The notes below the pieces were generated by a model. The model searched no databases, was not told the origin of the DNA, and saw only the letters and a program-made list of their open reading frames with translations. The position numbers were made by a program, and so were the translations under genes. This document shows, in pieces, positions 3,034 to 40,979 of a stretch of 48,076 nucleotides of DNA. The stretch's first letter is position 1. Every line of letters starts with the position of its first letter. Source of the DNA: Nitratireductor indicus C115 (GTDB lineage: Bacteria > Pseudomonadota > Alphaproteobacteria > Rhizobiales > Rhizobiaceae); contig NZ_AMSI01000020.1 in NCBI RefSeq assembly GCF_000300515.1, positions 1-48,076 of the forward strand, written 5' to 3'.

Positions 3034-3177
3034 TCGGCAACTTCCACAAACTGGACCTCGCTAGACGCAGATCTCTCGTATCGAGCGGCTCTACACCGCT
3101 CTCGTCTCCATGGCATGTTTCCGTCCTACAAATGCGATCGACGGGCCTATCGATCATGGATAACTGCCTTCCGTCAG

Positions 3178-3195: not shown

Positions 3196-3274
3196 TTCGG
3201 ACGGGGGTGAGTCGGGTTCCGGACGGCGGATTGGAGGATATTTGCTTTTCCCGGGCCCAACGGCCGGGCTCGGC

Positions 3275-3292
3275 CCCGGCAATTCTGCCGGG
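3275..3292. repeat. 18-bp near-palindrome, copy 2 (inverted)
   Basis: CCCGGCAATTCTGCCGGG, the reverse complement of the copy at 3178-3195. The flanks (GGGCCCAACGGCCGGGCTCGG) are also rich in short G+C palindromes. Together the two copies could fold into a large cruciform or bind a dimeric protein. Confidence 0.7.
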
Positions 3293-3513
3293 CCAGAATT
3301 TGCTCCAGGTATCATCGGGCAATGTTGGTAAGTGACTGAGAGAAAAGGAAAAAGGCCGCCAAGGTCACGGCCGCCGCCGATCTCGATCACGCTTCTGGCA
3401 ACCTTCTGTTAACCTAAAATCGCTTGCCAGAGAACGGGAATCGCTCATACTGGCGCCAGATTGGCCGAATGGCCGAATATGGCGCTATTTTCTCGTTCGG
3501 GGACAAAGCGGAG

Positions 3514-4701
3514 ATGGCATTTCTCCCAAGTTTTGAGTTTGACGACAAGATCCTCGCCCAAGGGGCCGAGATCTCGCGCAAGCTCGACCAACTGAGGGTC
3601 GAGAAGTTTCCGACCGAAGGGCAGAAGACGCTTCGGCGGTTCTCGATGGCCGAGGTCGCCCATTATCTCGGGATCAGTCCAAACAATCTGAAACGCCTCC
3701 ATCTTGAAAAGAAAGGCCCCGAGCCGTTCGTCGTTGCCGGTGGACGGCGCTTTTACTCCGCCGAGCAGATGACCGAGCTGCGGGACTATCTGGATAAGCA
3801 CGGGCGATCGGATTCCAAGAAGTATGTGCCCTACCGCAAACCCGGCGAAAAGCTGCAGGTCATTGCCGTGGTCAATTTCAAGGGCGGGTCGGGAAAAACC
3901 ACCACTACGGCACATCTCGCGCAGCACCTTGCGCTCACGGGTCACAGGGTCCTGACTGTGGATCTTGATCCGCAGGCTTCGCTATCGGCCCTCCATGGCT
4001 TCCAGCCCGAGCTCGACAAAAACCCCTCGCTCTACGATGCGATCCGATATGGTGACGCCGCCCCGGTCGAAGACGTTATTCGCAAGACGAACTTCCCGTT
4101 GCTCGACATCATCCCGGCGAACCTAGAACTGCAGGAATATGAGTACGAGACGCCACTTGCGATGCAGTCTCCGTCTCAAGAAGGAAAGCGGTTCTTCACG
4201 AGGGTCGCCAAGGCGTTGGATTCGGTCAGTGACCGTTATGACGTCGTGGTCGTCGATTGCCCTCCGCAGCTTGGCTATCTGACGCTCTCAGCACTCTCGG
4301 CCGCCACCTCGGTTCTGATTACAGTCCATCCGCAGATGCTGGACCTGATGTCCATGAGTCAGTTTCTGCTGATGCTGGGCAATATCATGAAGTCGATCAA
4401 GAATGCTGGCGCGCAGGTTCAGCTGGACTGGCTGCGCTATCTCATCACCCGATACGAGCCCACGGACATTCCCCAGGCGCAGATGGTCGGCTTCATGCAG
4501 TCGATGCTAGCCGAGGAGATCCTGAAGAACCCAATGCTCAAATCCACGGCGATTTCCGACGCCGGCCTCACCAAGCAGACGCTCTATGAGGTCGAGCGAT
4601 CGAACTTCAATCGGGATACCTACGATCGGGCAATCGACAGCATGGATGCCGTGAACTTCGAGATTCAGGGACTGATTCACCAGGCATGGGGGCGGCTGTG
4701 A
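3514..4701 (+). CDS. repA: RepA, plasmid partitioning ATPase (ParA family)
   Basis: ParA-type partition ATPase of a repABC replicon. It has an N-terminal winged-helix/HTH part (TLRRFSMAEVAHYLGISP) used for autorepression, a deviant Walker A motif (FKGGSGKTTTT), the VDLDPQASL block and VVDCPPQLGYLTL. With RepB it segregates the plasmid and represses repABC. I chose the ATG at 3514 because it puts the conserved N-terminus about ten residues before FDDKILAQGAEIS, as in relatives; ATG 3469 and TTG 3424 in the same frame are alternatives. Length is 395 residues, normal for RepA. The gene is followed 75 bp later by repB. Confidence 0.92.
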   Translation: MAFLPSFEFDDKILAQGAEISRKLDQLRVEKFPTEGQKTLRRFSMAEVAHYLGISPNNLKRLHLEKKGPEPFVVAGGRRFYSAEQMTELRDYLDKHGRSDSKKYVPYRKPGEKLQVIAVVNFKGGSGKTTTTAHLAQHLALTGHRVLTVDLDPQASLSALHGFQPELDKNPSLYDAIRYGDAAPVEDVIRKTNFPLLDIIPANLELQEYEYETPLAMQSPSQEGKRFFTRVAKALDSVSDRYDVVVVDCPPQLGYLTLSALSAATSVLITVHPQMLDLMSMSQFLLMLGNIMKSIKNAGAQVQLDWLRYLITRYEPTDIPQAQMVGFMQSMLAEEILKNPMLKSTAISDAGLTKQTLYEVERSNFNRDTYDRAIDSMDAVNFEIQGLIHQAWGRL

Positions 4702-4702
4702 T

Positions 4703-4718
4703 GTTGACTGCCGTCAAA
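4703..4718 (+). promoter_or_regulatory. Possible parS-like partition site between repA and repB
   Basis: GTTGACTGCCGTCAAA fits the general repABC parS pattern GTT-N2-C-N4-G-N2-AAC at every fixed position except the last base. Its arms GTTGAC and GTCAAA are inverted with one mismatch. Some repABC plasmids carry their centromere in exactly this repA-repB gap. It is a single imperfect copy, so this is a suggestion only. Confidence 0.35.
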
Positions 4719-4776
4719 ACCGCCAAAAAGGTACGCGGTTTCAAGCGCATAAGTCGGATAAGGGGGTGCTAGTCAA

Positions 4777-5787
4777 ATGGCGCGGAAAAATCCCTTTGCG
4801 AGCATTATGGACAACGGCAACGCTCCCGCCGAGCGCCCGGTCGCGCGAGACTACGCCTTCAAGGGTGCATCACGCTCGCTCATAAGCTCGATCGACGAAA
4901 TGGCAGCTCAGGCAGGCAAGCTGCTCGAGGGCGAGACGATAATCGAGGTTGACCCCGACTTGGTGGACCAATCCTTCGCCAACGACCGGCTCAACGTTGA
5001 TCAGGAAGACTACGAGGCCGACTACGCCCAGGTGCTGGAGTCGATCCGCAGTTCCGGTCAGAACTCCCCGGCCCTCCTTCGCCCTCATCCCGAGCGGTCC
5101 GGCCGCTACATGCTGGTCTTCGGTCGCCTCCGCTGGCGCGCCGCTAAGGAGCTTGGTCTCAAACTTCGCGCTGTCATCAAGGAGATCTCCGAGCGCGATC
5201 ATGTGATCGCCCAGGGACAGGAAAACAACGCGCGAGCGAACACGTCCTTCATCGAGAAAGCGCTGTTTGCCGCCGACATCGTTCAACGGAAATTCGACGA
5301 AGACAACGCGACCGCCCTCGCCGCGATCGGTGTCGATCGGCCGACACTTTCGAAGATGCTCTCTGTCGCGTCGATACCCAAGGACCTGCTCGAAGCGATC
5401 GGCCGCGCCAAAGCCGTTGGTCGTGATCGCTGGTACGAGCTCAAACTCCTCCTCGACAAGCCGGGCAATGTCGACACTGCCCTGGCTCTAGCGTCGAATT
5501 CCGATTTTCAGGGGATGCCAAGCGAAGCGCGGTTCGATGCGATCGTCGCGAAGCTGAAAGCCTCAAAGCCACGGCGCCGTGCCGCGCCGGCACCATCCAA
5601 ACGCACCTGGGCGCCGTCTGATGGGCGTGTTGCCGCGGAGATGGTGGCCAGTGGCAAGAAATTCACCATCGCCCTAAAGGCGAAGGGGACCGACGCAACA
5701 GCGTTCGGTGACTACCTCTCGGAAAATCTCAGCGAGTTGTATGAGGCTTTCCGTCGGGAAAAACGAGCAACCACAAACGGAGATTGA
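4777..5787 (+). CDS. repB: RepB, plasmid partitioning protein (ParB family)
   Basis: A 336-residue ParB-like centromere-binding protein. The ParB N-terminal nuclease-like block is visible as HPERSGRYMLVFGRLRWRAA near residues 104-124 and continues to the helix-turn-helix region around ALAAIGVDRPTLSKMLSVAS (about 182-200). The C-terminal segment after residue 255 is Lys/Arg-rich and probably mediates dimerisation. It sits in the canonical repA-repB-repC order; repA-repB spacing is 75 bp and repB-repC 165 bp, the latter carrying the antisense RNA. Length is normal. Confidence 0.93.
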   Translation: MARKNPFASIMDNGNAPAERPVARDYAFKGASRSLISSIDEMAAQAGKLLEGETIIEVDPDLVDQSFANDRLNVDQEDYEADYAQVLESIRSSGQNSPALLRPHPERSGRYMLVFGRLRWRAAKELGLKLRAVIKEISERDHVIAQGQENNARANTSFIEKALFAADIVQRKFDEDNATALAAIGVDRPTLSKMLSVASIPKDLLEAIGRAKAVGRDRWYELKLLLDKPGNVDTALALASNSDFQGMPSEARFDAIVAKLKASKPRRRAAPAPSKRTWAPSDGRVAAEMVASGKKFTIALKAKGTDATAFGDYLSENLSELYEAFRREKRATTNGD

Positions 5788-5790
5788 GCG

Positions 5791-5832
5791 CAAAAGAAAA
5801 AGGCCCCCGAAACGGCATTCCGGAAGACCTTC
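5791..5832 (-). terminator. Rho-independent terminator of the ctRNA
   Basis: Read on the minus strand: an imperfect hairpin with outer AAGG/CCTT and inner CCG/CGG pairs, followed by TTTTTCTTTT. In ctRNAs this hairpin is also the loop that contacts the repC leader. Confidence 0.65.
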
Positions 5833-5848
5833 TCTTTAAGTTTGGCGA
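5795..5848 (-). ncRNA. Candidate ctRNA: antisense incompatibility RNA of the repABC replicon
   Basis: repABC plasmids encode a small RNA on the opposite strand between repB and repC that lowers RepC synthesis. Here the minus strand carries a promoter with TTGACT (5882-5877), a 17-bp spacer and GATTCT (5859-5854). The predicted transcript starts near 5848 and ends about 50 nt later at a hairpin with AAGG/CCTT and CCG/CGG arms followed by TTTTTCTTTT (to about 5791). Position, strand, size and terminator all agree with known ctRNAs; exact ends are estimates. Confidence 0.75.
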
Positions 5849-5853
5849 CTGAG

Positions 5854-5882
5854 AGAATCCCACTTCCGCGAATCATAGTCAA
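5854..5882 (-). promoter_or_regulatory. Promoter of the antisense ctRNA
   Basis: On the minus strand a -35 TTGACT (5882-5877) is separated by 17 bp from a -10 GATTCT (5859-5854). It points into the ctRNA and away from repC. Confidence 0.6.
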
Positions 5883-5952
5883 GACCATTCAGGTCGGTTT
5901 GAGCGCCGATTCGGCGAGCAGGTTTCTTTTGCCTAGCGATAGGTGAAGAAAA

Positions 5953-7290
5953 ATGCAGACGCATACCCCAACGACGCCCTTTGGGCGGCGAACGATGTCG
6001 CTTGGCATGATGGCAAGCCAGGCTGTAGCAAAGACCGTGCCGGAAGGCGCGCAGGTTCAAAAGTGGCAGGTGTTCCACACGATCCGGGAAGCGCGCGACC
6101 TGATCGGTGCAACGGACCGCGCACTCGCCATTCTGAACGCCCTGCTCTCGTTCCATCCAGAAACGGAGCTCTCGGGCGACGGTGAATTGATTGTCTGGCC
6201 GTCGAACGAGCAACTCATGGCCCGTGCAAACGGCATGCCGGCGACAACGCTGCGGCGGCACCTGGCCGTTTTGGTCGACTGCGGGCTGATCATTCGTCGC
6301 GATAGTCCGAACGGCAAACGCTTCGCCCGCAAGGGCAGGGGCGGGCAGGTCGAACAGGCCTACGGGTTCGATCTGGCCCCGATCGTTGCCCGTGCGGAGG
6401 AGTTCGAGGAACTGGCGGACGCGGTTCGGGCCGAAAAGAATGCCTTTCGGCTTGCCAAGGAACGCCTGACGTTACTGCGCCGCGACGTCGTCAAGCTCAT
6501 TGAGACCGGCATCGAGGAGAACGTTCCGGGCAATTGGGGCAGGGTACAGCAGACCTACCAGGCTATTGTCGGCCGCCTGCCGCGCTCTGCCCCGAGGCAA
6601 CTAATCGAGGACATCTGCTGCGATCTCCACGGCCTCTACACGGAGATCCTCGAGGTGTTGGAATCATTTGCAAAAACACAGAATCCGGACGCCAATGAGT
6701 CCCATTCTGGTCGCCACATACAGAATTCAAACCCAGACTCCATATCTGAATCTGAAGAAGGCTCTCGAAAAGAGAATGAAGCGGGCGGCAGCGTCGCGGA
6801 AAACGATAACCTGCGGAGCTTGCCGAAGCGGGAGTTGCCCTTGGGGATCGTGCTTGACGCCTGCCCGGACGTGAAGGATTTGGTGCCAGGGGGCGAGATA
6901 CGCCACTGGCGGGACTTTCTGGCGGCCGCGGAGGTGGCTCGGCCACTGCTTGGGGTCAGCCCGAGCGCCTGGCGGGAAGCCTGCGAGGCGATGGGCGAGG
7001 TTCAGGCCGCTATTACGCTCGCGGCAATCCTGCAGCGCTCCGATCAGATCAACAGCGCCGGCGGTTATCTGCGCAGCCTGACGGACAAGGCAAGGGAGGG
7101 CAAATTCTCCACATGGCCGATGGTCATGGCGCTTTTGCGCGCCAAGCTCGATGCCGGCAAACGTGCTGAACTCAGCGGGGACCGAGGCGAACTAGCAACG
7201 TCTGACGCTTCTGACAGTGCTCCCGGCAAGCTCGAAGTTAGTGAGGCGCTTCTTCGCTCACTCAAAAAGCCGTCCGGGGGCAGGGGGTAA
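5953..7290 (+). CDS. repC: RepC, plasmid replication initiator
   Basis: A 445-residue initiator of the repABC family. The N-terminal DNA-binding region includes DRALAILNALLSFHPETEL and MARANGMPATTLRRHLAVLVDCGLI (winged-helix-like). A low-complexity, acidic, AT-rich linker (about residues 235-280) precedes a conserved C-terminal domain with INSAGGYLRSLTDKAREG near 370-390. In studied repABC plasmids the origin lies inside repC and RepC acts mainly in cis. AGGTGAAG precedes the start. Expression is probably limited by the antisense RNA upstream. The gene is intact. Confidence 0.95.
   Translation: MQTHTPTTPFGRRTMSLGMMASQAVAKTVPEGAQVQKWQVFHTIREARDLIGATDRALAILNALLSFHPETELSGDGELIVWPSNEQLMARANGMPATTLRRHLAVLVDCGLIIRRDSPNGKRFARKGRGGQVEQAYGFDLAPIVARAEEFEELADAVRAEKNAFRLAKERLTLLRRDVVKLIETGIEENVPGNWGRVQQTYQAIVGRLPRSAPRQLIEDICCDLHGLYTEILEVLESFAKTQNPDANESHSGRHIQNSNPDSISESEEGSRKENEAGGSVAENDNLRSLPKRELPLGIVLDACPDVKDLVPGGEIRHWRDFLAAAEVARPLLGVSPSAWREACEAMGEVQAAITLAAILQRSDQINSAGGYLRSLTDKAREGKFSTWPMVMALLRAKLDAGKRAELSGDRGELATSDASDSAPGKLEVSEALLRSLKKPSGGRG
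6655..6785. other. Predicted replication origin (AT-rich segment within repC)
   Basis: This segment of repC is clearly richer in A+T than its surroundings (for example AATTCAAACCCAGACTCCAT) and codes for the Ser/Glu/Asn-rich linker. In characterised repABC plasmids oriV maps to such an AT-rich stretch in the middle of repC. No iterons are seen, as expected for this family. The placement is inferred from the family. Confidence 0.55.
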
Positions 7291-8142: not shown

Positions 8143-9066
8143 TCAGGCTGCCTCGAGCAAGCCGCTTCGCTTTGCCCGGTCGAGAAGGTTTTTGACGGAG
8201 GAGGGCGCCCATCTCGTACCGCCACGCGGTGTGCGCTCATGAAGGCGCTCGAGCTGGTTGGCGATTTCGCGCAAGGTGAGCTCTGGGTTGGAGGAATGGA
8301 TACCCGCTACAAGCGTCATCAGGCGGTCCTCGGGCGGCCGAGGCGGCGACTTTCTCAGGAGAGACTTATCGGCCATTCCTTCGCTGACCATCCATCTTAC
8401 CGCGCGCCGCAAGCGCTCAGGGGTCCAATCGAAGCCGCGTTGCTTGAGGACGCGCGAAATGTCGTCCCAGGTGTGGTCTGGTCGCATGCGCCGGACGACT
8501 GGAAGCCATTGATTGGCAGTGGACTGGATGCGCGCGCCGTAGGCCGCTTTCTGAGCAGCCGTCATCTTGGCCAGCATCTCCGGCCGACGTTCCCGAACCC
8601 CTGGGTTGCCTGGTAGCCGGCCATTTGCCTTCGCAGCTTTGACGCCTGCCTTCGTCCGCTCCGAGTTGAGAGCCCGTTCCAGCTGGGCGACGGCGCCAAG
8701 GACCTGCAGCGAAAACATGCCCTGCGGCGTCGTGGTATCGATGGGATCGCTCAGCGAGCGGAAATATGCGCCTTTGGCCGTCAGCTCCTCGATGACATCG
8801 AGCAGGTGGCTCACCGAGCGCGCCAGGCGGTCGAGCCGAACCACAACGAGAGTGTCGCCGGCGCCGATCTCACGGACCAGCCGGGCGAGGGCAGGGCGGG
8901 TCCGCGAGGCGCCGGACCCATGCTCCTGGATGATTGTGTCGCATCCGGCCGACCTCAGTTCCATCTCCTGCGCTTGCGTCGCCTGCTCGTCCGTGGAGAC
9001 GCGCGCATAGCCGATAAGCCGGCCCTGTGGCCGACGGGAAGAGGGATTGCGCGGTGTTTTGGCCAT
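8143..9066 (-). CDS. Serine recombinase (resolvase/invertase family) with a long C-terminal extension
   Basis: The N-terminal 140 residues are a resolvase catalytic domain: LIGYARVSTDEQ holds the nucleophilic serine (Ser24), and VVVRLDRLARSVSHLLDVI carries the conserved Arg residues. The remainder to residue 307 contains HTH-like blocks (TWDDISRVLKQRGFDWTPERL and TLREIANQLERL), longer than the single HTH of Tn3-type resolvases. Such proteins resolve plasmid multimers or excise mobile DNA. A perfect 9-bp inverted repeat upstream (9099-9139) could be its site. The gene is monocistronic and convergent with the PLD-like gene. Confidence 0.88.
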   Translation of the reverse strand: MAKTPRNPSSRRPQGRLIGYARVSTDEQATQAQEMELRSAGCDTIIQEHGSGASRTRPALARLVREIGAGDTLVVVRLDRLARSVSHLLDVIEELTAKGAYFRSLSDPIDTTTPQGMFSLQVLGAVAQLERALNSERTKAGVKAAKANGRLPGNPGVRERRPEMLAKMTAAQKAAYGARIQSTANQWLPVVRRMRPDHTWDDISRVLKQRGFDWTPERLRRAVRWMVSEGMADKSLLRKSPPRPPEDRLMTLVAGIHSSNPELTLREIANQLERLHERTPRGGTRWAPSSVKNLLDRAKRSGLLEAA

Positions 9067-9098
9067 TTGGAGAGCCTGAGAGCCGTGTTGAAGGCGAA

Positions 9099-9139
9099 TT
9101 TACAAACATAGAAGATACGGATAACCGATCGTTTGTAAA
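9099..9139. promoter_or_regulatory. Inverted repeat upstream of the recombinase: possible res site or operator
   Basis: TTTACAAAC (9099-9107) and GTTTGTAAA (9131-9139) are a perfect 9-bp inverted repeat with a 23-bp spacer, 33 bp upstream of the recombinase start. Serine resolvases bind inverted half-sites at res, which normally overlaps their own promoter. Only one pair is evident, so a simple operator is equally possible. Confidence 0.5.
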
Positions 9140-9348
9140 CGTCTCCTGAGTGCCTTTCTGACACTTGGAAGTGCGAAAAACCCCGGAAAAACAAGCTCTC
9201 TCGTCGATCTGAGCACGGATTGCCAGGTCTCTGTTCAATCCCGGAGGCCGCAGCGCTCATTATATATAGAGGGGCTGAAGAATTACTGGTGTGACGGAAG
9301 CGAAAAGCATGTTAGCTTCCGTAGTGAAATCGAAGCATCGTTATATCA

Positions 9349-10455
9349 ATGACTTATGAAATCGGGAAATTGACCCATGAGACCCTCTTGGGGCCGATTG
9401 CGGCCGCAGAGGACGCGCTTGCCCGGCTTGATGAGCGCGTTGCCCGATCCGAAGTCGGTGCCGGCTTCGCCGAGCGGGCAGATTTCTTCGATTCCGTCTC
9501 CAGTATGTGGGTCGGCGGCGAACTCGTCCATCTCGAGGATCTGGTTCTCCACGACGCACAGATGGACATTCGCGCGCCGAGCCATGAGCTCGTCATTGCG
9601 CACCGCATCGTCCGGGCCCGGCGCCGCGTGTCACGAAACGATCCCGGCTGGGCAGTTTCGCGATCGGGCATACTGGCGCTTGCCGGTGTTGCCGAAGAGC
9701 CACCGCTCGAGAGCGAACCGTCCGACAGGGGAGGGGAGGGGGTCGAACTCGACTTGGTCGATCACGATGCACTGTCGCCCGAGCTGGCCGAGATCGATGA
9801 GGTCCTCGCTCGCACGAAATGGCTGGTCGATGGCAATGACCCCGCAGAGACAAGGAAGCAGGAGCCCGAGCTCAGTGTCGGCGAGCTGCTCATTCGCGAT
9901 CCGGATTGGGACGAAGGCGAACGGATCGGCGAGTGGCTCGAGCTGGCCAAGCAGGTTGAACGGCTTCCAGCCACATTGGCGGCGGCCGTTCTCTGGGATG
10001 CATGGGAACATCTCGAACCCCTGCAGCGTCAGCACTGGCTCGGTCAGGTGCTTGTTTCGGGCTTCCTGAGAACTCGCAGAAAGGTCCGATCGCACCTGTT
10101 GGCGTATGCCGTGGGCTTGCGGGAAATTCCGCGTGAACGACGCCGCGCCCGTGATCGGACTGTACGATTGGTCGCCTTCCTAGATGCGATGAGTGCGGCC
10201 GCCGCAGCTGGAATGAAGGACATCGACCGACTGACTTTGGCAAAACGCCAACTCGAGCGGAAGGCAGCGGGCAAACGCACAACAAGTAGTCTTCCAGTTG
10301 CCATCGATCTTCTATTGTCGCGACCCATCGTGTCGGCACACATGGTCGCGAAGGTGGCAAGGATCACGCCGCGCGGCGCCCGGAATTTGGTCGAAGAACT
10401 AAGTGTTCGCGAGATGACCGGGAGGGGGCGTTATCGAGCTTGGGGGATCCTGTAA
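9349..10455 (+). CDS. RHE_PE00001-family protein (plasmid-associated, HTH domain)
   Basis: A 368-residue protein recognised from rhizobial plasmids, named for a Rhizobium etli p42e gene. The N-terminal half includes FAERADFFDSVSSMWVGGEL and VHLEDLVLHDAQMDIR; the C-terminal end (ITPRGARNLVEELSVREMTG) looks like a winged HTH. The middle is acidic and low in complexity. Function is not established; the wide occurrence next to repABC suggests a DNA-binding plasmid-maintenance or transposon-associated role. The gene is convergent with the ubiquitin-like operon (66 bp between stops). Confidence 0.8.
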   Translation: MTYEIGKLTHETLLGPIAAAEDALARLDERVARSEVGAGFAERADFFDSVSSMWVGGELVHLEDLVLHDAQMDIRAPSHELVIAHRIVRARRRVSRNDPGWAVSRSGILALAGVAEEPPLESEPSDRGGEGVELDLVDHDALSPELAEIDEVLARTKWLVDGNDPAETRKQEPELSVGELLIRDPDWDEGERIGEWLELAKQVERLPATLAAAVLWDAWEHLEPLQRQHWLGQVLVSGFLRTRRKVRSHLLAYAVGLREIPRERRRARDRTVRLVAFLDAMSAAAAAGMKDIDRLTLAKRQLERKAAGKRTTSSLPVAIDLLLSRPIVSAHMVAKVARITPRGARNLVEELSVREMTGRGRYRAWGIL

Positions 10456-10521: not shown

Positions 10522-10851
10522 CTAACACCATTTAATCCGGCCGTCGCGAAGCCAAAAATGGCTGCGGCAACCGGTCTTCCTCCAAATACTAGGATGCAAT
10601 GTGGGGTATCCACTTGCTTCCAATCTCACGGACCACCTTGGTCTAGCCTCCGGGATCAATAGCAGCTCGAGGCGATCGCCACATCCGCACGGACATCTAA
10701 GTGCAACTGCCCAGTCATCACCATCGTCACGAGCGAGGAAGATATCTCGTGTTCGGATGATGTCCGGTGGGGTGTCGGCGTCCACGACAATCATTTTTCG
10801 GGCGGGGGCAACCTTTGCCCAAAGCTTCAGGAACCAAAGTGGCAGTTTCAT
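10522..10851 (-). CDS. DUF6527-like small Cys-rich protein of the ubiquitin-like operon
   Basis: A 109-residue protein whose start overlaps the stop of the E1-JAB gene (ATGA), so translation is coupled. A CPCGCG cluster (Cys53, 55, 57) and a C-terminal set Cys95, His98, Cys109 could together bind zinc. This arrangement and the position beside E1/E2/Ubl genes agree with DUF6527 proteins, which recur in bacterial ubiquitin-like operons. A zinc-stabilised adaptor or E3-like role is possible but inferred; nothing in the sequence proves catalysis. The N-terminus (MKLPLWFLKLW) is a short hydrophobic helix. It is the last gene of a three-gene operon. Confidence 0.7.
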   Translation of the reverse strand: MKLPLWFLKLWAKVAPARKMIVVDADTPPDIIRTRDIFLARDDGDDWAVALRCPCGCGDRLELLLIPEARPRWSVRLEASGYPTLHPSIWRKTGCRSHFWLRDGRIKWC

Positions 10852-12236
10852 GCGGCTTCGTCCTGTAGTTCCGCAAGAGAAGGCATCCCGAGCAGAGGTT
10901 CAGCGAGTCCTCTGCCGAGCAGTGGCTTTGGACTGTGTTCGAACGCGCTTTCGGGGAAGTAGTCTTCGTCCATGGCGGCGAGCGAAAACAGGGTACGCGC
11001 ATACGGCCAGTTTCCGTCGAGACGGAACTTGAACAACCTCGAAAGCCATTCGTTTACAGCTGCACTTGCAGCACGCATGTTGAGACTGATCACTGAGGGG
11101 GCCTCGTCGGGAATACCTTTTAAATAACCCTCTTTGAGCTGATCCTCTGCCTCCTCGGGTGCATGTCGAAGGAGATACTCCCGGCGTAGCGCTTCAGGTG
11201 TTACCACGCGCCGGTCTTGCAGGGACGGACCACCCGGCCTCACAAAGTCGATTCGGCCGCAAACATCTGCAATGAGACGGCCTCCTTCCGATGCAAGTCT
11301 TGTTGGTATCGTCACCCCCACATCTATCAGGGGTACCAGAGCGCACTGGGCGATGTGATCGCAAAATAGCCGGCCTTCGGAACTGTCGACACAGCAGAAC
11401 ATGACGTCGGCGGTGCTGGCGGCTACAATGGCACCCGGCTCGCTGATGGGCCGGTCGATCTCAATGATCTCAATATCGCTTCGATAGGTGCGGATCGCCT
11501 TGGCCATCATTGTTACCTTCAGCGTCTTCGCCAGAGCGTCGTCGGCGGTCGAGTTGACGATCCGATTGAGATTCTTGCCTTCAACGATATCGAAATCGAT
11601 CAAAATCAGCCGACCTATTCCAAGTCGGGCAAGTATCTCCGCAACAATGGATCCGGTGCCGGAAACGCCGATAACGCAAGCGGTTCGGCGCGAAAGGCAT
11701 GCCCGCATAGCATCGGAGAAGGCAAGCACTGGCTGCAGGCCAACTGGCGAGAGTTCTGTAATGTCTTCGCCTACGAGCGTTGTAGTCAGGCGCAAAGGCC
11801 TCGCGCCAGGACGGGTGTACAGCCGAGCGCAAATGGCTCCGTCAGGAGTCATCGTCGCGCTGCCGTGCGGCCCGTCCGGCAAGGCTTGAAAAAGAGCAGT
11901 AATGGTCCTTTCGTCACTTTGATTGTCCACCTCTGAGAAACCGTAGAACCCACCGGGGTGAGAATGTATGAGGAAAACCGAGTCGCCGGTCGCTTCCGCC
12001 CGATCTATGGCTTCTTCGATGCGGCGACCTGGCCAGCTAATCTGTACATTGCTGCGATTGCTGCATTCGGCATACGGCACCAGAATTAGATCCCGGACGC
12101 AAAAGCGATACCTCGTCGAACCCGCGCGTCCACAAATGAGGATCGCCGCCGCTTCAAGCCCGTCGCCCGAAAATAGGTGGGTACGTAGGGCATCAAACTG
12201 TGGCTCCAACAGAACAAGGGTCGGCTCAGATCTCAT
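10848..12236 (-). CDS. JAMM (JAB) deubiquitinase-like protease fused to ThiF/E1-type activating enzyme
   Basis: Two-domain, 462-residue protein. Residues about 15-150 form a JAB/MPN domain with a perfect JAMM zinc signature: His91, His93, Ser101, Asp104 (HSHPGGFYGFSEVD). Residues about 170-400 form an E1/ThiF adenylation domain: VIGVSGTGSIVAEILARLG, then LIDFDIVEGKNLNR. The expected chemistry is ATP-dependent activation of a ubiquitin-like C-terminus (E1) plus Zn-dependent cleavage of Ubl precursors or conjugates (JAB). The ATG at 12236 overlaps the upstream stop by 11 bases and has GGGAAG upstream; a start at 12266 is possible. Where related ThiF proteins often read RPGGPC-x2-C, this one reads RPGGPSLQD, so the catalytic cysteine must lie elsewhere (Cys281, 282, 298 or 326). 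Confidence 0.88.
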   Translation of the reverse strand: MRSEPTLVLLEPQFDALRTHLFSGDGLEAAAILICGRAGSTRYRFCVRDLILVPYAECSNRSNVQISWPGRRIEEAIDRAEATGDSVFLIHSHPGGFYGFSEVDNQSDERTITALFQALPDGPHGSATMTPDGAICARLYTRPGARPLRLTTTLVGEDITELSPVGLQPVLAFSDAMRACLSRRTACVIGVSGTGSIVAEILARLGIGRLILIDFDIVEGKNLNRIVNSTADDALAKTLKVTMMAKAIRTYRSDIEIIEIDRPISEPGAIVAASTADVMFCCVDSSEGRLFCDHIAQCALVPLIDVGVTIPTRLASEGGRLIADVCGRIDFVRPGGPSLQDRRVVTPEALRREYLLRHAPEEAEDQLKEGYLKGIPDEAPSVISLNMRAASAAVNEWLSRLFKFRLDGNWPYARTLFSLAAMDEDYFPESAFEHSPKPLLGRGLAEPLLGMPSLAELQDEAA

Positions 12237-13374
12237 CGCCAACTTCCCGGAGCAGAGACTCCTCAATCACTGCCAAATGCGTCACGACACTGTCGGTTTG
12301 AGGATTCCAGCGAGTTTTTCCATTCAGATGCCGGGACCAGCGCTGATAGCTCACTCCCTCGATAGTCTTGGTAGACTCGGTTTTGGATATGGATGCGCCG
12401 CTTGCAAGTCTCAGGTGTGGGGCGCAGTAGAACATGTCAATTGCGGCGCTGGGGTAGGTGGCTGGGATGTCGATGGCGATATCGACCGACGAATGGTTGA
12501 AGCCCGCAGGTAGTCCCATCGAGCGGATGATCAGCCAGCGCCTTCCACCTTCGATGATTGAATCCCAAATCAGGGCACGCTTTGCCAGATAAGCTTCGTC
12601 CTTTTTCAGCAGTCGGAATTGACGGCGAAGGCCACTCGGGCCCTCGCCATTGTTGATCTCCGCAGGGGTAAGGCGGAGCTTCTCGATACCGGGCGTACTG
12701 AGATCGATAGTATCGGTGAGTGCCACCTGCTGTTTCGGCTGTCCTACCTTCTTGAGGATCGCGATCCATCCGGCGTCCGGGTCGAAGCCGGCTTGCGCCA
12801 GTGCGTCCTTAACGACGACCGAAGGGGTCATCAGAGTGATAATGACGCCCTGAACGTTCAGCTTCCAGCTGCGCGGTTTTGAATACAGCTTCTCCAATTC
12901 ACGGCCGCCCAGGTCGATGGAAGCGCCTGGAGCAATTTCCTCGTCCGGTTCGTCTGACCGCTCAAGGAAGAGTGCCTTGGTCTCTGGGATGCGCCCGATC
13001 AGCCGCACGAGATCTTCGGAGATCCTGCGCGCACCCCAAGCGTATCTTTTGCCGTCGATCGACCAGTTCCAGATGCGGTCGGTCTTGAAAGCGAAGAAGC
13101 GCTCGGCTCCGCTGGCGCGGATGTCGATCGTCTCGGTGAGGTCGACAACGATCAGGCCGTCGTCCCTTGTCAGCATGAGCAGGACGTAGTCCTCAGCCGG
13201 GTTGCGTTCGAAAAGCTCCAGTACCTGCCGCCCAGTCGGCATGGGATCGCTGAGAATACGCTTTTCGTCGAAGCCGTCGCCGTCCCACAGACGGACACGA
13301 TAGTGATTTGACTCGGGAATTGGCTGGCTACGGGTGCCGGCCGCGTACTGTTCGAGATCGATTGCGTCAGACAT
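12226..13374 (-). CDS. Three ubiquitin-like domains fused to an E2-type domain (multiubiquitin/Prok-E2 family E)
   Basis: A 382-residue polyprotein. Three beta-grasp repeats are visible, each ending in a related strand: TETIDIRASGAERFFAF (80-96), ASIDLGGRELEKLYSK (151-166) and TDTIDLSTPGIEKLRLT (220-236). A short linker with NNGEGPSG follows, then residues about 249-382 resemble prokaryotic E2 family E: a candidate catalytic Cys317 in FYCAPH and the block YQRWSRHLNGKTRWNP (343-358). The protein would supply both the modifier and the conjugating enzyme; the JAMM domain of the next gene may process it. No Ubl ends in a free Gly-Gly, so maturation by cleavage or a non-classical linkage is implied. 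First gene of the operon. Confidence 0.85.
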   Translation of the reverse strand: MSDAIDLEQYAAGTRSQPIPESNHYRVRLWDGDGFDEKRILSDPMPTGRQVLELFERNPAEDYVLLMLTRDDGLIVVDLTETIDIRASGAERFFAFKTDRIWNWSIDGKRYAWGARRISEDLVRLIGRIPETKALFLERSDEPDEEIAPGASIDLGGRELEKLYSKPRSWKLNVQGVIITLMTPSVVVKDALAQAGFDPDAGWIAILKKVGQPKQQVALTDTIDLSTPGIEKLRLTPAEINNGEGPSGLRRQFRLLKKDEAYLAKRALIWDSIIEGGRRWLIIRSMGLPAGFNHSSVDIAIDIPATYPSAAIDMFYCAPHLRLASGASISKTESTKTIEGVSYQRWSRHLNGKTRWNPQTDSVVTHLAVIEESLLREVGDEI

Positions 13375-13443
13375 AGCGTCATCCTTCTTTGGTTCGTTGC
13401 AGACCGTTTTGGCCGCCGTGGTACAGATATAGTAGCCAAAAAG

Positions 13444-13460
13444 TAGCTATACAATAGCTA
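13444..13460. promoter_or_regulatory. 17-bp palindrome in the divergent promoter region, probable operator
   Basis: TAGCTAT-ACA-ATAGCTA is a perfect inverted repeat in the AT-rich gap between the ubiquitin-like operon (minus) and the RHH gene (plus). Ribbon-helix-helix proteins bind such short palindromes and usually repress their own operon. The position suggests that one protein may control both operons. Confidence 0.6.
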
Positions 13461-13530: not shown

Positions 13531-13740
13531 ATGGCAAAGAAGACAATGACTCTGAATCTCTCCGACGAGGAGATGGAAGTGCTGGAGCGCCTTTGTGAAA
13601 AGAAGGATCTCAGCAAGACAGCCCTGATCCGTCAGTCGCTACGGCTCTATCAGCGGATCGAAGAGCGGCTCGAAAAAGGTGACAAGCTGTTTTTTGAGCA
13701 CGAGGCCAGCAAGGAAAAGGCCGAGGTGATGATGCTATGA
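13531..13740 (+). CDS. Ribbon-helix-helix DNA-binding protein (CopG/antitoxin-like)
   Basis: A 69-residue protein beginning MAKKTMTLNLSDEEMEVLERL, with the beta-strand plus two-helix pattern of RHH proteins (strand TMTLNLS, helix EEMEVLERLCEKK, helix SKTALIRQSLRLY). A strong AGGAGG lies nine bases before the ATG at 13531; GTG 13504 and ATG 13525 in the same frame are less likely. The stop overlaps the GNAT gene start (ATGA). RHH-GNAT pairs form toxin-antitoxin modules such as TacAT, where the RHH protein neutralises the toxin and represses the operon. It probably binds the palindrome at 13444-13460. Confidence 0.8.
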   Translation: MAKKTMTLNLSDEEMEVLERLCEKKDLSKTALIRQSLRLYQRIEERLEKGDKLFFEHEASKEKAEVMML

Positions 13741-14384
13741 CGTCAGATCGAAAACCTGACGTGACCCCCGTGGGCCTGTTCGATGTGGCGGGCAATCGAA
13801 TGGTTGATGCGGAACTCTGGGACGCAATAGCGGAAAAGAACCTGGCTGATTGGGAAGCCGAGTGGATCCCGGAGCTTTTCAAGCTTCTGCAAGCGCTCAA
13901 TCGCAAAGGGGTCGAGCGGCGATTTTGGCCACAAAGTCGCCACTGGGACTGGCGCGATAAGATGAAAGCGATTGAAGGCCGATTGGCGAACCAGTCGTTT
14001 TCGATCGTGTGTCAGGATATGACTCAGGCGATGATGACCACAGACGTGACAAAGCGGGCACAGATTGCCAGCCAGAAAAATGATCATCTCGTTTATGTTG
14101 ACTTCCTGGAAGCGGCACCGTGGAACCGCCGCGAAATGACCCAGATGCCGCCGCGCTTTTCCGGAGCCGGCTCGATTCTTATCCTCGCCGCGATCGAGCA
14201 GAGTAAGATGGAGGGCTTCAGAGGCCGCATCGGATTGCATTCGCTTCCCCAAGCCAATGATTTCTACGCCAATAAGGTAGGCATGACGGATCTGGGGCAG
14301 GACGCGGCATATCAGAACCTTCGGTATTTCGAGATGACTCCCGAGCAGGCCGAAGCGTTCATAGAGAAAGGACGAAAGAAATGA
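13737..14384 (+). CDS. GNAT-like acetyltransferase, possible toxin of an RHH/GNAT module
   Basis: A 215-residue protein. The C-terminal half looks like a GNAT fold: YVDFLEAAPWNRR (strand), RFSGAGSILILAAIEQS as the acetyl-CoA-binding loop and helix, then GLHSLPQANDFYANKVGM, the usual C-terminal FY...GM block. The N-terminal 90 residues are less typical and include a WPQSRHWDW segment. It overlaps both neighbours by four bases (ATGA), so the genes are translated as one unit. Small GNAT toxins acetylate aminoacyl-tRNA; this protein is longer than TacT (about 160 residues), so that target is only a possibility. Confidence 0.65.
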   Translation: MTSDRKPDVTPVGLFDVAGNRMVDAELWDAIAEKNLADWEAEWIPELFKLLQALNRKGVERRFWPQSRHWDWRDKMKAIEGRLANQSFSIVCQDMTQAMMTTDVTKRAQIASQKNDHLVYVDFLEAAPWNRREMTQMPPRFSGAGSILILAAIEQSKMEGFRGRIGLHSLPQANDFYANKVGMTDLGQDAAYQNLRYFEMTPEQAEAFIEKGRKK

Positions 14385-14857
14385 AGATCGAAGTGACAAA
14401 GGACTGGTGCGAAGCCATGGCGCGGCAGGAAGCCGACGTCGAGGTCGGCGCTGGCCTTATCGCTGCTGATCCGATCTTCAATGGAGAAGCAGCACATGAC
14501 ACGACATTTGATGAATCGCGCATAGCGCTCGGTCGATTTGTTCATCTCATGCGGAGAAGGGATAAGCTTTCGTTGGAAGCATTGGCCGAACGCGCAGATG
14601 TAGACCTTGCCGAGCTGATGAGCATCGAGTTCGATGCCCATTATCTACCTGAGTCGCGGACGCTTTATCAGCTAGCGCATACCTTCAAGGTATCGCACAA
14701 AAAGCTGATGGGTTTGTCGGGACTGACCAAGCCCAAGGACGTTCAGTATGTCGAAGAGGCAGTGAGATATGCTGCTCGATCAGAGTCGATTGAGACGCTC
14801 AGCGCGGAGGAACAAGCCGCTTTGGAAGGGCTGATTTCCGTACTGAGTGAAAAGTAA
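14381..14857 (+). CDS. XRE-family helix-turn-helix protein with an N-terminal extension
   Basis: A 158-residue protein. A Cro/CI-type HTH spans about residues 45-105 (GRFVHLMRRRDKLSLEALAERADVDLAELMSIE). The preceding 40 residues are acidic, and the C-terminus (SIETLSAEEQAALEGLISVLS) is helical. XRE regulators paired with ImmA/IrrE proteases are usually cut or inactivated by the protease to release repression; the next gene is such a protease. Its start overlaps the GNAT stop (ATGA), so it may also act as a second antitoxin-like element. Confidence 0.8.
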   Translation: MKIEVTKDWCEAMARQEADVEVGAGLIAADPIFNGEAAHDTTFDESRIALGRFVHLMRRRDKLSLEALAERADVDLAELMSIEFDAHYLPESRTLYQLAHTFKVSHKKLMGLSGLTKPKDVQYVEEAVRYAARSESIETLSAEEQAALEGLISVLSEK

Positions 14858-14880
14858 TGCCGTGAAAGGACTACGATACG

Positions 14881-15810
14881 GTGGCGAAGAACGAAATACT
14901 GCGGGCGAGAACGGCCGCGGATATCGATGAACGCGTTGAACGTGTCCTAAACGGCTTGGGCAATCCCGAACCGCCTCTCGATTTGCGGACGGTTCGGGAA
15001 CTTCTCAAACTCGACCGCGGCTACTACTCGGCAAATGATCCGGGCCTCCTGCAAGAGACCGTTTCCAAACTGAGAATCGCTGGTAAGCAGGTGCTCCTGA
15101 GGCCAACTTTGCTCATTGAGGCAGTCCGGAAAATGGACATTCGTGCGCTATATATTCCAGATCAGAAGCGCATACTCATCGACAAATCACAGCCGAAGCT
15201 GAAGCACCGATGGAACGAGGCACACGAGATCGGGCATAGTGTCCTGCCTTGGCACGAAGGCGCAATGCTTGGCGATGATGAGTACACACTCATCCCTGCC
15301 TGCCATGCTCGACATGAAGCCGAAGCGAACTTCGCTGCTGCACGGTTGTTGTTTTTGCGAGAAAAGTTTGTCGAGGAAGCACAGGCTCATGAGGCCTGCA
15401 TCGAATCGATGAAGAAGCTCAAGGAGCGTTTCGGGAACACCTATACAACAACACTGTGGCGCTGCGTGGAGGCGTGGGGAGCATCAGTCCCAGTTGTAGG
15501 GCTGGTTACCGGACATCCACACCCTGATCAACGAAAACCGGACTTCGATCCTGAGAACCCGTGTCGGCATTTCATCCAGTCGCCTGCATTTGCGCGGCAG
15601 TTCTCAACAGTTCCAGAAACGAGCGTCTTTGAGGAAGTAGTCGAGTATTGCTCTCCAAAAGGCGGGGGCCCCTTGGGCGAAAGCGACGTGCTATTGGTCG
15701 ACGACAATGGAGACGGCCATATATTTGAGTTTGAGAGCTTCCATTTCTATCATCAAACGTTGACCATTGGCATATATCGGCGCCCCCGGAGAAATTTGGT
15801 TGCAGCATAA
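14881..15810 (+). CDS. ImmA/IrrE-type metallopeptidase
   Basis: A 309-residue zinc peptidase starting with GTG. The HEIGH motif (His115, Glu116, His119) lies in WNEAHEIGHSVLPWH, and HEAEANFAAARLLF (146-158) carries the third ligand Glu, as in ImmA of ICEBs1 and IrrE/PprI. Such enzymes cleave a partner XRE repressor after a signal. A C-terminal domain of about 120 residues (from HPHPDQRKPDF) is an extension, perhaps for sensing. It follows the XRE gene by 23 bp and ends the operon. Together the four genes could form a signal-relieved toxin switch. Confidence 0.85.
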   Translation: MAKNEILRARTAADIDERVERVLNGLGNPEPPLDLRTVRELLKLDRGYYSANDPGLLQETVSKLRIAGKQVLLRPTLLIEAVRKMDIRALYIPDQKRILIDKSQPKLKHRWNEAHEIGHSVLPWHEGAMLGDDEYTLIPACHARHEAEANFAAARLLFLREKFVEEAQAHEACIESMKKLKERFGNTYTTTLWRCVEAWGASVPVVGLVTGHPHPDQRKPDFDPENPCRHFIQSPAFARQFSTVPETSVFEEVVEYCSPKGGGPLGESDVLLVDDNGDGHIFEFESFHFYHQTLTIGIYRRPRRNLVAA

Positions 15811-15974: not shown

Positions 15975-18900
15975 TTACGCAATCTCATGAATTCTTGCAT
16001 TTGGCACGACTTGCACTGCAATCTCGCACAGGTGCCGGTGATGGGTGAGATATATCACCTGGCCCACCTGAGCCATCTGCCCGAATAGCCGAAAGACTTC
16101 CTCTGATCGCGGTTCGTCGAACGTTTCCATAATGTCATCAGCGACGAACGGTACAGAAGGCCTTGCTGCCGCGAATTCCTCGTATCCGGCTAATCGAAGA
16201 GCCAGGTACAGCTGAAACTGAGTGCCCTTGGACATTTCGACGGCGAGTTTGGAACCGCCTTGCCGCGACAGTCCGATCAACGCCTCACGATCCTTGTCCG
16301 GCCGTGTGGCAAGTCCGGAGTATTCATCACGCGTAATCAACCGGAAGGCTTCGGATGCCCGGTTCATCATCGCACTACGGTGTTTTTCCCGATATGCGCG
16401 GATACCGTGTTCAGCGACCAGGCTTCCGGTCTTCAGGCGTAGATATCGCAGCGCCAGATCCTCGATTTCCAGAAGTAATGTGCGGCGGTTTGCTTCGATG
16501 CGGGCGACAGCGTCATCGCCTCCGATCGCGTCCAATGCGTCAGTTGCGCGAGCCCTGTCAGCGAAGAGATCCTTTGCGCGTCCGTCGAGGTCGGCAAGGC
16601 GCGTATCGAGTTCAGCTTGTTCTGCCTGCAGTTCGCCGAGGTTGATATTGCGGAGGCCGGCTACCGCCTCCTCGATGAATTGCCTCTGCGTCTCCCCGAG
16701 AATCTGCCGCTCGAGTTTGCCGAGTTCCGTGATCAACTCGTCCCTTTTCTTGCAGCGCTCCAACGCCTGTCGGACATCGGCGAGCTCGTTGACCTGGAAG
16801 AATTCAGTCATCTCCTCCTTGCGGGAGTCATGCACCGCGACCTCTCCATCCAGATGCTCATACTCGAGTTTGAGATCGACAAGGGCCTGGTTTCGTTCCT
16901 GTCGTTTCGCGTCTGTCTGCCTGGCTTCTTCGTGCCGTCGGATTAGTTCCTTGGCTGCGGCGAGCGGATTGTTGCCATCGTACGCTTCTTCGAGCGCCGT
17001 ATGCAGCCGCTCGACTGTATCAGCGAAGGCTGACTGATCGGATTCCATCGACGCAATGCGATGACTCAGGTCTTCCTGCGCGCGCAACGCCTCGGGGAGA
17101 CCGGTCATCGCGTCGAGGAGTTCTCGTATCGCGCCGACACTGCTTTGGCGATCGGAAAACCAGGTGTTGGAGAGGGTGCTCCCCCAAGCACGCTGCCACT
17201 CTTCGAATGCGGCTACGGCTTCGTCCAATGCCGTTTTTCGCTGAGACGCTGCGGCTTGAAGCTCCGCGAGGCGTTTGTCCGCTTCGACGCGTCTGGTTCG
17301 GGTGGTAGCGTGTTCCGTGAGAATGTTGTCAGCTGCCTGCATCAATGCAGCCAAATCCAGTCCCTCGACATCGATCCCAAGCCTGATCAAGGATTCAGAG
17401 AGAAGACCCTTTTCCGTTTCTATAACTGACCTCGCTTCGTCAATGTCGCTCAGAGATCGACGGAGGTCATCATGTGCAACCAGTGCCGAGGTGCGGGCCT
17501 CGGCCCAGCTGCTGACTGTTTTTAGCCAGGCATGCGTGGGTTTGTCCGCAGGCAGTTCGATCTCGGTTGGCGTCTCGGACCGGATTTCGCGGCGCAAGGC
17601 TTCCAGTTCACTGTCGGTCTCCTGCAGCAATTGATCTTGCTGCTCGAGGTGCGCCTTTGCGACCGACAATGCCGCTGACAGAGACCGCAACTCCTCGAGC
17701 TCTTTGAGACCGTTTAGTCGTATATCGACGATCGCATCGGCCGATCGCATTTCCCTTTCGAAACGATCAGCCGTTTCTCGATCCAAGCTGGACAAGTGGT
17801 GTGCCCACGCTTCGTCACGTTGAACTAGGGCAGCTTTCGCCTCCTCGTCATCCTTGATGGCCGATGCTTCGCGCAGGGAAGAGATCCTGACGGTGTCCTC
17901 ATTGCACTTTGTTGAGAGCTCCCGCTTCCGCTCGCCGATTTGTGCGCGTCTCTTCTCGATCCCTTCAAAAATCAGTTTCCATGCGGCCAGTTGATCGGGT
18001 TGGGGCGGCGAGATCTTGCGTAGTTCCGTCCCCTCGCCAGCCCAGGGATGGAGGTTGTGGATAGCATTATCAAAGGCGCGTCTCTTCTCGGGAAGGGCTC
18101 GCTCCGCAAGGCGAAGTTCGGCAGCCAGATTTCCGTCGCGCAGGCGTTTCAGTACGGTTTGAAGCTGTGCGATCTTGCCCGCGTCGACCGCGACGCCTTG
18201 TCCGTCAAGCGCCTGTCGAGCGCGCTGCTCATCTTCCAGAGCCTGCCGGGCGGACGCTTCTTCCTTTTCGGCTGATTGGTGCGTGACATCGATGCCGGTT
18301 TTTTGGGTGATCAGATCACGAAGCGCTCCGATCGTGGAGGCTGAAACAAGAAGTGTCTTGGGGTCGTCGACATTGGATTGTCCCAAGGTCACGAGAATGA
18401 GATCGATCTTGCGGGTGCATTCAGCCAGCGCGTCGTTCCGTTTCGGGAGATCGTCTGCAGCCGTCGTGTAGCGTGCGGCGGCGTCTCCAAGCCGATCGAG
18501 ATCATCTGCCATCTCGAGCAGACGGTCCTCGACGATCAACCCCGCGAGTTCGTCACGAAGCTTCTGCTCACGCTGTTTGAGGCCGATAGTCTGTGTTTGA
18601 AGCCGCGTCTCCTCGACGATGAGCTCGGGAAGAGCGGTCGCCCATTCCGCCGGAGGGTTTGGCATGTCCTTGTATTCTGACAGCTTCTCCTGCCCCTGAA
18701 GGTATTCGGTCGCCAAAGGGTAGGCGCGCAGGGTACGGATTATCTCCTCATGACGCACCTTGGCTGCCGCGATCTCCTTCATGGCAGCGTCATAAGCAGT
18801 CTGTGCTTGCTCAAGTGCTGCCGTCAGAGCCTTGTAAGAGGAGGCCTGCACATCGATTTCGTCGCGCTTTGATTTCAGCTCCGCAATCTGTCGCTTCAGA

Positions 18901-19457
18901 CCTGCGATTGCGGTCGAACTCGCGCGCTTCCGGAAAATGCCGTCGGCTTCGGCCGCCGCGGTTTCGAGAATGGAATTGACGCCAGCCAGGCCTGCACTTG
19001 CCGAGAACAACAACTCGCCCAGATCGCCCTTGCTCTCCAGGATCGCGTTGCCTCCATCCTCGAGTGTCTGATCGTCGAGCGAAAACATCATGCGATAGGC
19101 GTCACGTGTCAGACCGGCGAGCGGGACGCTCAGAACCGCCTCGTTGACCGGCTGCCCGTTCGCATCCAGGAGGGAATTGCTGCGCTGCTTGACGCGCCTC
19201 AACTCGTGGGCCGATCCATCGAACTCCAGACAGGCGCCGATCTCCATGGCTTTGCCTTGATGAAGAAAGCTGTAGCGCGTGCGTTCCTCGATGCCGAACA
19301 GGAGATCGAGATAGGCGGAAAGCGCCGTCGATTTGCCGGCTTCGTTCAGGCCGTAGACGATATGCAGATCCGGTGTGTCGCTTTCATGCTCCCCGAAGTC
19401 GATTGAATAATCCGTGAACTTGCCGTAGCGGGTAAGATCGAGCCGGCGCAGGCGCAT
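15975..19457 (-). CDS. Large AAA/SMC-type ATPase with coiled coils (YhaN/Rad50-like)
   Basis: A 1160-residue protein. The N-terminus has Walker A GLNEAGKST near residue 40; the C-terminus has a signature-like block (GTQFQLYLALRLA) and Walker B FVADDIMETFDE. Long heptad-rich, Glu/Arg/Leu/Ala-rich coiled-coil stretches occupy roughly residues 190-1000. This is the ABC-type head plus coiled coil of SbcC/Rad50 and YhaN proteins. It follows the Mre11-like gene with a stop/start overlap at 19457, so the two are expected to form a DNA-end-processing complex. Plasmid carriage suggests a repair or anti-invader function. No break in the frame is seen. Confidence 0.85.
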   Translation of the reverse strand: MRLRRLDLTRYGKFTDYSIDFGEHESDTPDLHIVYGLNEAGKSTALSAYLDLLFGIEERTRYSFLHQGKAMEIGACLEFDGSAHELRRVKQRSNSLLDANGQPVNEAVLSVPLAGLTRDAYRMMFSLDDQTLEDGGNAILESKGDLGELLFSASAGLAGVNSILETAAAEADGIFRKRASSTAIAGLKRQIAELKSKRDEIDVQASSYKALTAALEQAQTAYDAAMKEIAAAKVRHEEIIRTLRAYPLATEYLQGQEKLSEYKDMPNPPAEWATALPELIVEETRLQTQTIGLKQREQKLRDELAGLIVEDRLLEMADDLDRLGDAAARYTTAADDLPKRNDALAECTRKIDLILVTLGQSNVDDPKTLLVSASTIGALRDLITQKTGIDVTHQSAEKEEASARQALEDEQRARQALDGQGVAVDAGKIAQLQTVLKRLRDGNLAAELRLAERALPEKRRAFDNAIHNLHPWAGEGTELRKISPPQPDQLAAWKLIFEGIEKRRAQIGERKRELSTKCNEDTVRISSLREASAIKDDEEAKAALVQRDEAWAHHLSSLDRETADRFEREMRSADAIVDIRLNGLKELEELRSLSAALSVAKAHLEQQDQLLQETDSELEALRREIRSETPTEIELPADKPTHAWLKTVSSWAEARTSALVAHDDLRRSLSDIDEARSVIETEKGLLSESLIRLGIDVEGLDLAALMQAADNILTEHATTRTRRVEADKRLAELQAAASQRKTALDEAVAAFEEWQRAWGSTLSNTWFSDRQSSVGAIRELLDAMTGLPEALRAQEDLSHRIASMESDQSAFADTVERLHTALEEAYDGNNPLAAAKELIRRHEEARQTDAKRQERNQALVDLKLEYEHLDGEVAVHDSRKEEMTEFFQVNELADVRQALERCKKRDELITELGKLERQILGETQRQFIEEAVAGLRNINLGELQAEQAELDTRLADLDGRAKDLFADRARATDALDAIGGDDAVARIEANRRTLLLEIEDLALRYLRLKTGSLVAEHGIRAYREKHRSAMMNRASEAFRLITRDEYSGLATRPDKDREALIGLSRQGGSKLAVEMSKGTQFQLYLALRLAGYEEFAAARPSVPFVADDIMETFDEPRSEEVFRLFGQMAQVGQVIYLTHHRHLCEIAVQVVPNARIHEIA

Positions 19458-40971: not shown

Positions 40972-40979
40972 GTGAAGCC

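Follow-up and report, generated by a model that had tools for sequence, protein, structure and literature searches.

The window analysed here is a 48,076-nucleotide stretch of Nitratireductor indicus C115 (contig NZ_AMSI01000020.1, positions 1 to 48,076), on the minus strand of which (10522-13374) lies an operon that by its sequence is a Bub (bacterial ubiquitination-like) operon, a family already known. Divergent from it, just beyond the genes described in an earlier note on this DNA, an operon of four genes (13531-15810) encodes a ribbon-helix-helix (RHH) protein, a GNAT acetyltransferase, a helix-turn-helix (HTH) protein and an ImmA/IrrE metallopeptidase (Table 1). We read the locus as a Bub operon carried on a plasmid and controlled by a mobile cassette of four genes, and give this reading a probability of roughly 0.8.

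The Bub operon and the cassette divergent from it

In Pfam, the product of the first bub gene matched Multi_ubiq in three stretches (E 6e-23) and Prok-E2_E at residues 255-375 (1.4e-36), that of the second gene Prok-JAB (6.3e-8) and ThiF (4.2e-21), and that of the third DUF6527 (6.6e-25). The earlier note had described three ubiquitin-like (Ubl) domains and an E2 in one chain, a JAMM signature (H91, H93, S101, D104) fused to a ThiF/E1 domain, and a DUF6527-like protein; the profile search that it called for recovered every domain it named, and the four JAMM residues together with E28 are kept in 45-46 of 48-49 aligned relatives. Among solved structures, the multi-ubiquitin protein 9d59 matched residues 16-243 of the fusion (E 3.9e-43), Citrobacter BubB 9eav_D residues 242-379 (E 6e-31), and the BubA fragment 9ea8_B was matched as well. 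A 463-residue query (one extra codon at the front) aligned with Citrobacter BubCD 9ea4 over residues 7-456 (phmmer, E 3e-124), a nearly end-to-end match that upholds the proposed kinship with Bub-type operons. The overlaps of starts with upstream stops are likewise real for genes 2 and 3, the ATG of gene 2 (12236) lying 11 nt within gene 1 and that of gene 3 overlapping the stop of gene 2 (ATGA). All four Bub components were found, namely a multi-Ubl BubA, a Prok-E2_E BubB, a JAMM-E1 BubCD and a DUF6527 gene downstream, in the same order as in known Bub operons such as that of Citrobacter freundii pOZ181, which also has a fused Ubl-E2 open reading frame (ORF).

In the divergent cassette, the RHH protein matched RHH_1, DUF6290, RHH_9 and NikA-like families in Pfam up to E 0.1 and did not classify as a DUF1778-type antitoxin. 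The GNAT fold was matched in the acetyltransferase, where G143 (49 of 54 sequences) and G145 (54 of 54) presumably form the acetyl-CoA loop and Y177 (54 of 54) is, we assume, the catalytic tyrosine. An RHH gene adjoining a GNAT gene is the layout of known toxin-antitoxin pairs. The window's pair differs from TacAT, AtaRT and KacAT: identity is about 10%, the window GNAT has no Pfam match, other GNAT structures score equal to or above those three, and the operon has four genes. The HTH and ImmA/IrrE genes stand divergent from an immune operon as CapH and CapP do, with a PADLOC capP match for the peptidase, whose HExxH motif is intact in 70 of 72 loci; relative to CapH+CapP, the window adds the RHH and GNAT genes and a TAGCTA operator. 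Judged by sequence, the cassette is likely to be a mobile DNA-damage controller of the CapH+CapP-like type, to which an RHH repressor and an acetyltransferase have been added.

With its RepA-, RepB- and RepC-like genes and a gene for a TrbB-like ATPase, the contig is most probably part of a plasmid. The window shares 19.4 kb at 99.5% identity with a Nitratireductor rhodophyticola plasmid, which also encodes an identical first bub protein. Relatives of the BubA-BubB fusion occurred in 172 of 72,556 plasmid records (tblastn), and in 64 of these a single place spanned 80% or more of the query.

Table 1. Features of the window at the Bub locus and its replication genes
Feature	Position	Strand	Details and basis
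repABC-type replication genes (RepA-, RepB-, RepC-like) and TrbB-like ATPase	2062-7290		Counterparts named in the N. rhodophyticola plasmid record
DUF6527 protein (BubE position), 109 aa	10522..10851	-	Pfam, alignment, mostly beta model
BubCD, JAMM peptidase (E28, H91, H93, S101, D104) and ThiF/E1 domain	10848..12236	-	462 aa counted from ATG
BubA-BubB fusion, 382 aa	12226..13374	-	Pfam Multi_ubiq and Prok-E2_E; PDB 9d59, 9eav_D, 9ea8_B; junction, conservation
E2-like domain of the fusion	12229-12645	-	Candidate active residue S347 in QRWSRH
Three Ubl domains of the fusion	12646-13374	-	Ending at G243
Putative bub promoter TTGTAT-17-TATATC	13426..13454	-	First two operator hexamers inside; register test over 58 loci
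Operator TAGCCA-N5-TAGCTA-N5-TAGCTA	13433..13460		Period 11 bp
RHH (CopG-type) protein, 69 aa	13531..13740	+	Pfam RHH_1 2.7e-6; RefSeq start in near-identical plasmid; earlier GTG 13504 possible
GNAT acetyltransferase, 215 aa	13737..14384	+	
HTH protein, 158 aa, CapH position	14381..14857	+	Pfam HTH_19 5.7e-9
ImmA/IrrE metallopeptidase, 309 aa, CapP-like	14881..15810	+	HEIGH motif; Peptidase_M78 6.9e-8; PADLOC capP 1.7e-11

Relatives of the cassette and their partners

A search of genome contigs based on the GNAT alignment found 314 relatives. The census was made on the best 80 of these, so that it covers the nearer relatives and includes near-copies; its profiles were built from matches in the same loci. 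All four cassette genes were found in 69 loci, seven lacked an ImmA match, two had only RHH and GNAT, and two lacked an RHH match. Bub genes stood divergent from the cassette in 38 loci and on its other side in two, and a cyclase of the cyclic-oligonucleotide-based antiphage signalling system (CBASS) stood divergent in 23, of which two also have Bub downstream. For one CBASS locus, the partners were verified to be cyclase, HORMA, TRIP13 and SAVED-PDDEXK genes; the HORMA/Trip13/SAVED CBASS is a different immune operon, yet the same cassette and operator pattern stand alongside it in these 23 loci. Among the 38 divergent Bub loci, 17 have a Ubl-E2 fusion and eight separate Ubl and E2 genes.

We examined 14 of the 51 plasmid records with a GNAT match, the near-identical plasmid and 13 others. 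Six of the 13 held the cassette with Bub (on the other side in Jiella), two the cassette with CBASS, two the cassette with neither, and three, all cyanobacterial, a GNAT homolog alone. The GNAT gene is rare in even genome samples, the window genome being part of each: it was found in 2 of 397 genomes of the order, 2 of 385 of the class and 4 of 398 of the phylum, while Prok-E2_E occurred in 16 of the 397. The second genome of the order sample (L124) carries the complete cassette, and its Bub operon lies on the other side. One of the four further genomes of the class and phylum samples combines the cassette and the operator with a divergent Bub-like operon that gave no E2 match; another has the cassette genes (the GNAT match in two pieces) and the operator, with no Bub or CBASS match in the stretch taken; the remaining two have a GNAT homolog alone.

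Two census loci showed further features. In L036, from a Rhodobacteraceae metagenome-assembled genome, the four cassette genes still match beside a remnant of a Bub Ubl gene, after which a 1002-residue ORF (2796-5804) looks by eye like a Tn3-type transposase. In Methylomagnum (L024), a second RHH (DUF1778)-GNAT pair (9039-9946) adjoins the cassette.

The operator and its candidate binder

Upstream of the RHH gene, the cassette loci share the pattern TAGCTA-N5-TAGCTA-NTCAA-TAGC with a period of 11 bp. The strand TMTLNL was present in at least 86 of 87 RHH rows; one of the 87 RHH loci (L098) was dropped, having no such strand or start codon near the RHH match, and the 86 intergenic regions, counted over RHH-detected loci, were reduced to 67 by position-wise ungapped dereplication. 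The hexamer pair agreed at 10 or more of its 12 positions in 58 of the 67 regions compared with 1.1% of shuffles, at 11 or more in 51 (0.1% of shuffles) and at all 12 in 31 (no shuffles). Over the 86 regions, the operator was found next to Bub in 43 of 46 cases, next to CBASS in 23 of 25 and at 9 of the 15 other loci. In the window, four overlapping matches cover the repeat where 0.09 would be expected, and a search allowing at most one mismatch found no second place for the pattern in the 4,991,032-base genome.

The repeat is placed between putative -35 and -10 boxes of the divergent immune operon: on that operon's strand, a TTGA(A/C)T-like box and a TAT(A/T)AT-like box, 17 bp apart, flank the two hexamers. 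With the best of several candidate positions taken for the true register and for the slid controls likewise, at least 8 of 12 box positions agreed with the consensus in 28 of 58 regions; the 12 slid versions each reached this in 0 to 2 of the 58.

Which protein binds this operator was weighed on 21 control loci of Bub type, 20 of them without RHH-GNAT, at an operator threshold of 10 of 12. None of the 20 had the operator at the Bub promoter, including three with HTH and ImmA matches (L129, L130, L140); the repeats in L003 and L135 were chance ones away from it. We consider the RHH protein the likely binder because, in these sequences, the operator tracks RHH-GNAT and not HTH and ImmA alone. 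The rival is the CapH-like HTH protein, with RHH-GNAT a passenger toxin-antitoxin pair. It has for it that CapH+CapP is given in the main text of PMC13373217 as an established controller of Bub and CBASS, and that an HTH match accompanies 78 of the 80 cassettes. The three control promoters just named, however, lack the operator; L061 and L062, in which no HTH or ImmA match was found, keep it along with RHH and GNAT. A Jiella Bub operon (L029/L113) lies between two HTH-ImmA modules, one in the four-gene cassette and one alone, and the intergenic stretch of the lone module showed by eye no TAGCTA repeat (L029). Binding by the HTH protein is therefore unlikely in our judgement. We give a similarly low chance to the cassette being a toxin-antitoxin or defence module in its own right that just happens to neighbour immune operons in defence islands. 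Its toxin-antitoxin-like layout agrees with that, as do the 14 of 80 loci that have more than 1.5 kb upstream and no Bub or CBASS match and the three (L113, L114, L124) in which Bub is not divergent; against it stand the 61 of 80 loci (38 with Bub, 23 with CBASS) in which cassette and partner diverge at a similar distance, and the operator register, which falls inside the divergent promoter.

Several observations weigh against the controller as we read it. The bub promoter boxes of the window are weak (7 of 12 to consensus), and a strict promoter scan of the window did not call them. Loci with no Bub or CBASS match number 17 of the 80, three with too short a stretch upstream in addition to the 14 above; Pfam, run on 10 proteins from four of those 14, showed operons with ThiF, JAB and DUF7665/Metal_CEHH divergent from the cassette in L048 and L104 (ThiF and JAB below curated cut-offs in L048), a CAP12/Pycsar TIR effector as partner in L055 and a NurA-type gene in L108. 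Thirteen of the 38 divergent Bub loci lack an E2 match, 12 having E1 and DUF6527 and the other being the Ubl-gene remnant of L036, and therefore not all are of the window's type. Where Bub lies on the other side of the cassette (L113, L114 and L124), the operator adjoins the RHH gene and is missing from the Bub promoter; in L124, the one control locus with RHH-GNAT, it scores 11 of 12. In the order sample, the cassette occurs in just two of 397 genomes. Partners seem long kept and seldom exchanged, because 2 changes suffice for the Bub and CBASS labels on a quick tree of 54 GNAT rows (all four labels need 13, shuffled mean 23.8); cassettes linked to Bub and those linked to CBASS mostly form separate groups there, with few branches well supported. 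Finally, the structural model of the DUF6527 protein yields no function, no close match standing out against PDB structures. As a separate observation, DUF7665 may be the E2-like part of the Ubl-type operons in L048 and L104.

In the mechanism we propose for the four-gene controller, the RHH protein, made with the GNAT, would repress bub, and probably its own operon, by binding the TAGCTA repeats that lie in the bub promoter. The CapH+CapP-like pair of HTH and ImmA/IrrE proteins would release this repression, presumably after DNA damage, and the GNAT may be a partner of the RHH protein, a modifier or a toxin-like guard. More tentatively, and with less than even odds, the cassette might be an immune controller of a new kind, with a toxin-antitoxin-like pair coupled to an immune promoter: the RHH antitoxin would double as repressor of the partner operon, the DNA-damage protease pair would free the immune operon and the acetyltransferase jointly, and the cassette would move among Bub, CBASS, Pycsar-type TIR effector and other Ubl operons with its operator pattern retained.

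The main text of PMC13373217, a 2026 paper, surveys 544 Bub operons, of which 219 are accompanied by CapW or CapH+CapP and 59 by CapK+CapS. It describes CapP as activated by single-stranded DNA and cleaving CapH, puts in print a DNA-damage-triggered control of Bub through CapK+CapS, and states that phage protection by Bub operons has not been demonstrated, which makes the anti-phage use suggested in the earlier note conjectural; ribbon-helix-helix, RHH, GNAT, acetyltransferase and CopG go unmentioned in it. Two genes next to the pOZ181 Bub operon resemble CapK+CapS by size, order and annotation, whereas the window has RHH-GNAT-HTH-ImmA/IrrE instead. No title among those listed by the literature searches described an RHH-GNAT controller; one search listed a single paper, on a mycobacterial WYL regulator (PMC10693628). 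The Bub operon is known, and so is its DNA-damage control as a theme; the RHH-GNAT extension and its operator appear undescribed in the literature that was searched. To the question of how bacterial immune operons are silenced and switched on, the cassette adds a further candidate switch, which pairs a defined operator with a small putative repressor and includes both an enzyme and a protease. Similar repeats at Bub and CBASS promoters mean that one assay could read both, and the TAGCTA repeat offers a DNA signature for locating more immune operons.

Proposed maturation of the Bub proteins, and neighbouring genes

Natural genes occur both fused and split at the Ubl-E2 junction, and their comparison suggests that the mature Ubl ends in a glycine. 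Among 17 distinct separate BubA ORFs, eight end exactly in ...TTEG or ...QTEG, three extend one or two residues further and six lack such an ending; the deposited BubA chain terminates in ...NNG, and fused ORFs continue beyond the corresponding glycine, which in the window is G243 (...EINNG/EGPSG). G243 is likely the cleavage point of the fusion, a view supported because eight of the 17 separate ORFs stop at the equivalent residue. The JAMM domain of BubCD would cut the precursor after G243 into a free three-Ubl modifier and an E2, and the E1 domain would adenylate the G243 end and hand the modifier via the E2 to targets. The earlier note had left a choice between processing by JAMM and conjugation in cis; processing gained support and the cis alternative none. 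That the fusion stays uncut and conjugates in cis could be argued from how common fusions are in the loci analysed (of 58 ORFs that match Multi_ubiq, 36 match E2 too and 22 do not), but the shared glycine ends of separate BubA ORFs, the deposited chain and the intact JAMM of the bub operon speak against it and make it very improbable. Still less credible, and close to dismissed by us, is that the E2 acts via Cys317 in ordinary thioester transfer, which the same note had put forward. The residue is a cysteine in the window and 15 other E2 domains, yet among the 50 distinct domains A (13), L (8), V (6) and other residues take its place, and the solved Citrobacter BubB has V.

Elsewhere in the E2 domain, the motif QRWSRH retains its S347 and H349 in 48 of the 50 sequences, and W356 and D361 occur in all 50. 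The only strictly conserved cysteine of the E1 domain is C282 (49 of 49), which we take to be a structural position of the ThiF fold. Ye et al. in 2026 are said to have found that Bub uses oxyester rather than thioester chemistry. The conservation fits such chemistry, because the E2 has no conserved cysteine, S347 is kept in 48 of 50 and the one strict E1 cysteine is C282; transfer through the E2 would be expected to use Ser347 rather than Cys317.

The DUF6527 protein may be an accessory factor, possibly metal-binding. In an alignment of 30 sequences, some with uncertain starts, P87, S88, C95 and H98 are invariant and C53, C57, W73, G104 and W108 are kept in at least 90%, so that C53-x3-C57 and C95-x2-H98 may form a metal site. 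Its model is small, mostly beta and confident (predicted local distance difference test score, pLDDT, 94.6), and with no close PDB match it gave no sign of the adaptor or E3 role once suggested. In two Rhizobium Bub operons, a gene for a ClpP-like protease directly follows the DUF6527 gene (L139, 6820-7428; L143, 6822-7706) and might tie conjugation to degradation.

Further genes of the window lie beyond the cassette. Directly after it, on the minus strand (15975-20770), is a pair encoding an AAA_27 ATPase and a metallophosphoesterase (SbcCD/YhaNO-like), followed on the same strand by a HipA-type toxin gene (20856-22178), whose plasmid counterpart is shown in RefSeq with an adjoining HTH gene. 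Two heavy-metal P-type ATPases and two multicopper oxidases at 26537-42999 likely form a copper-resistance block.

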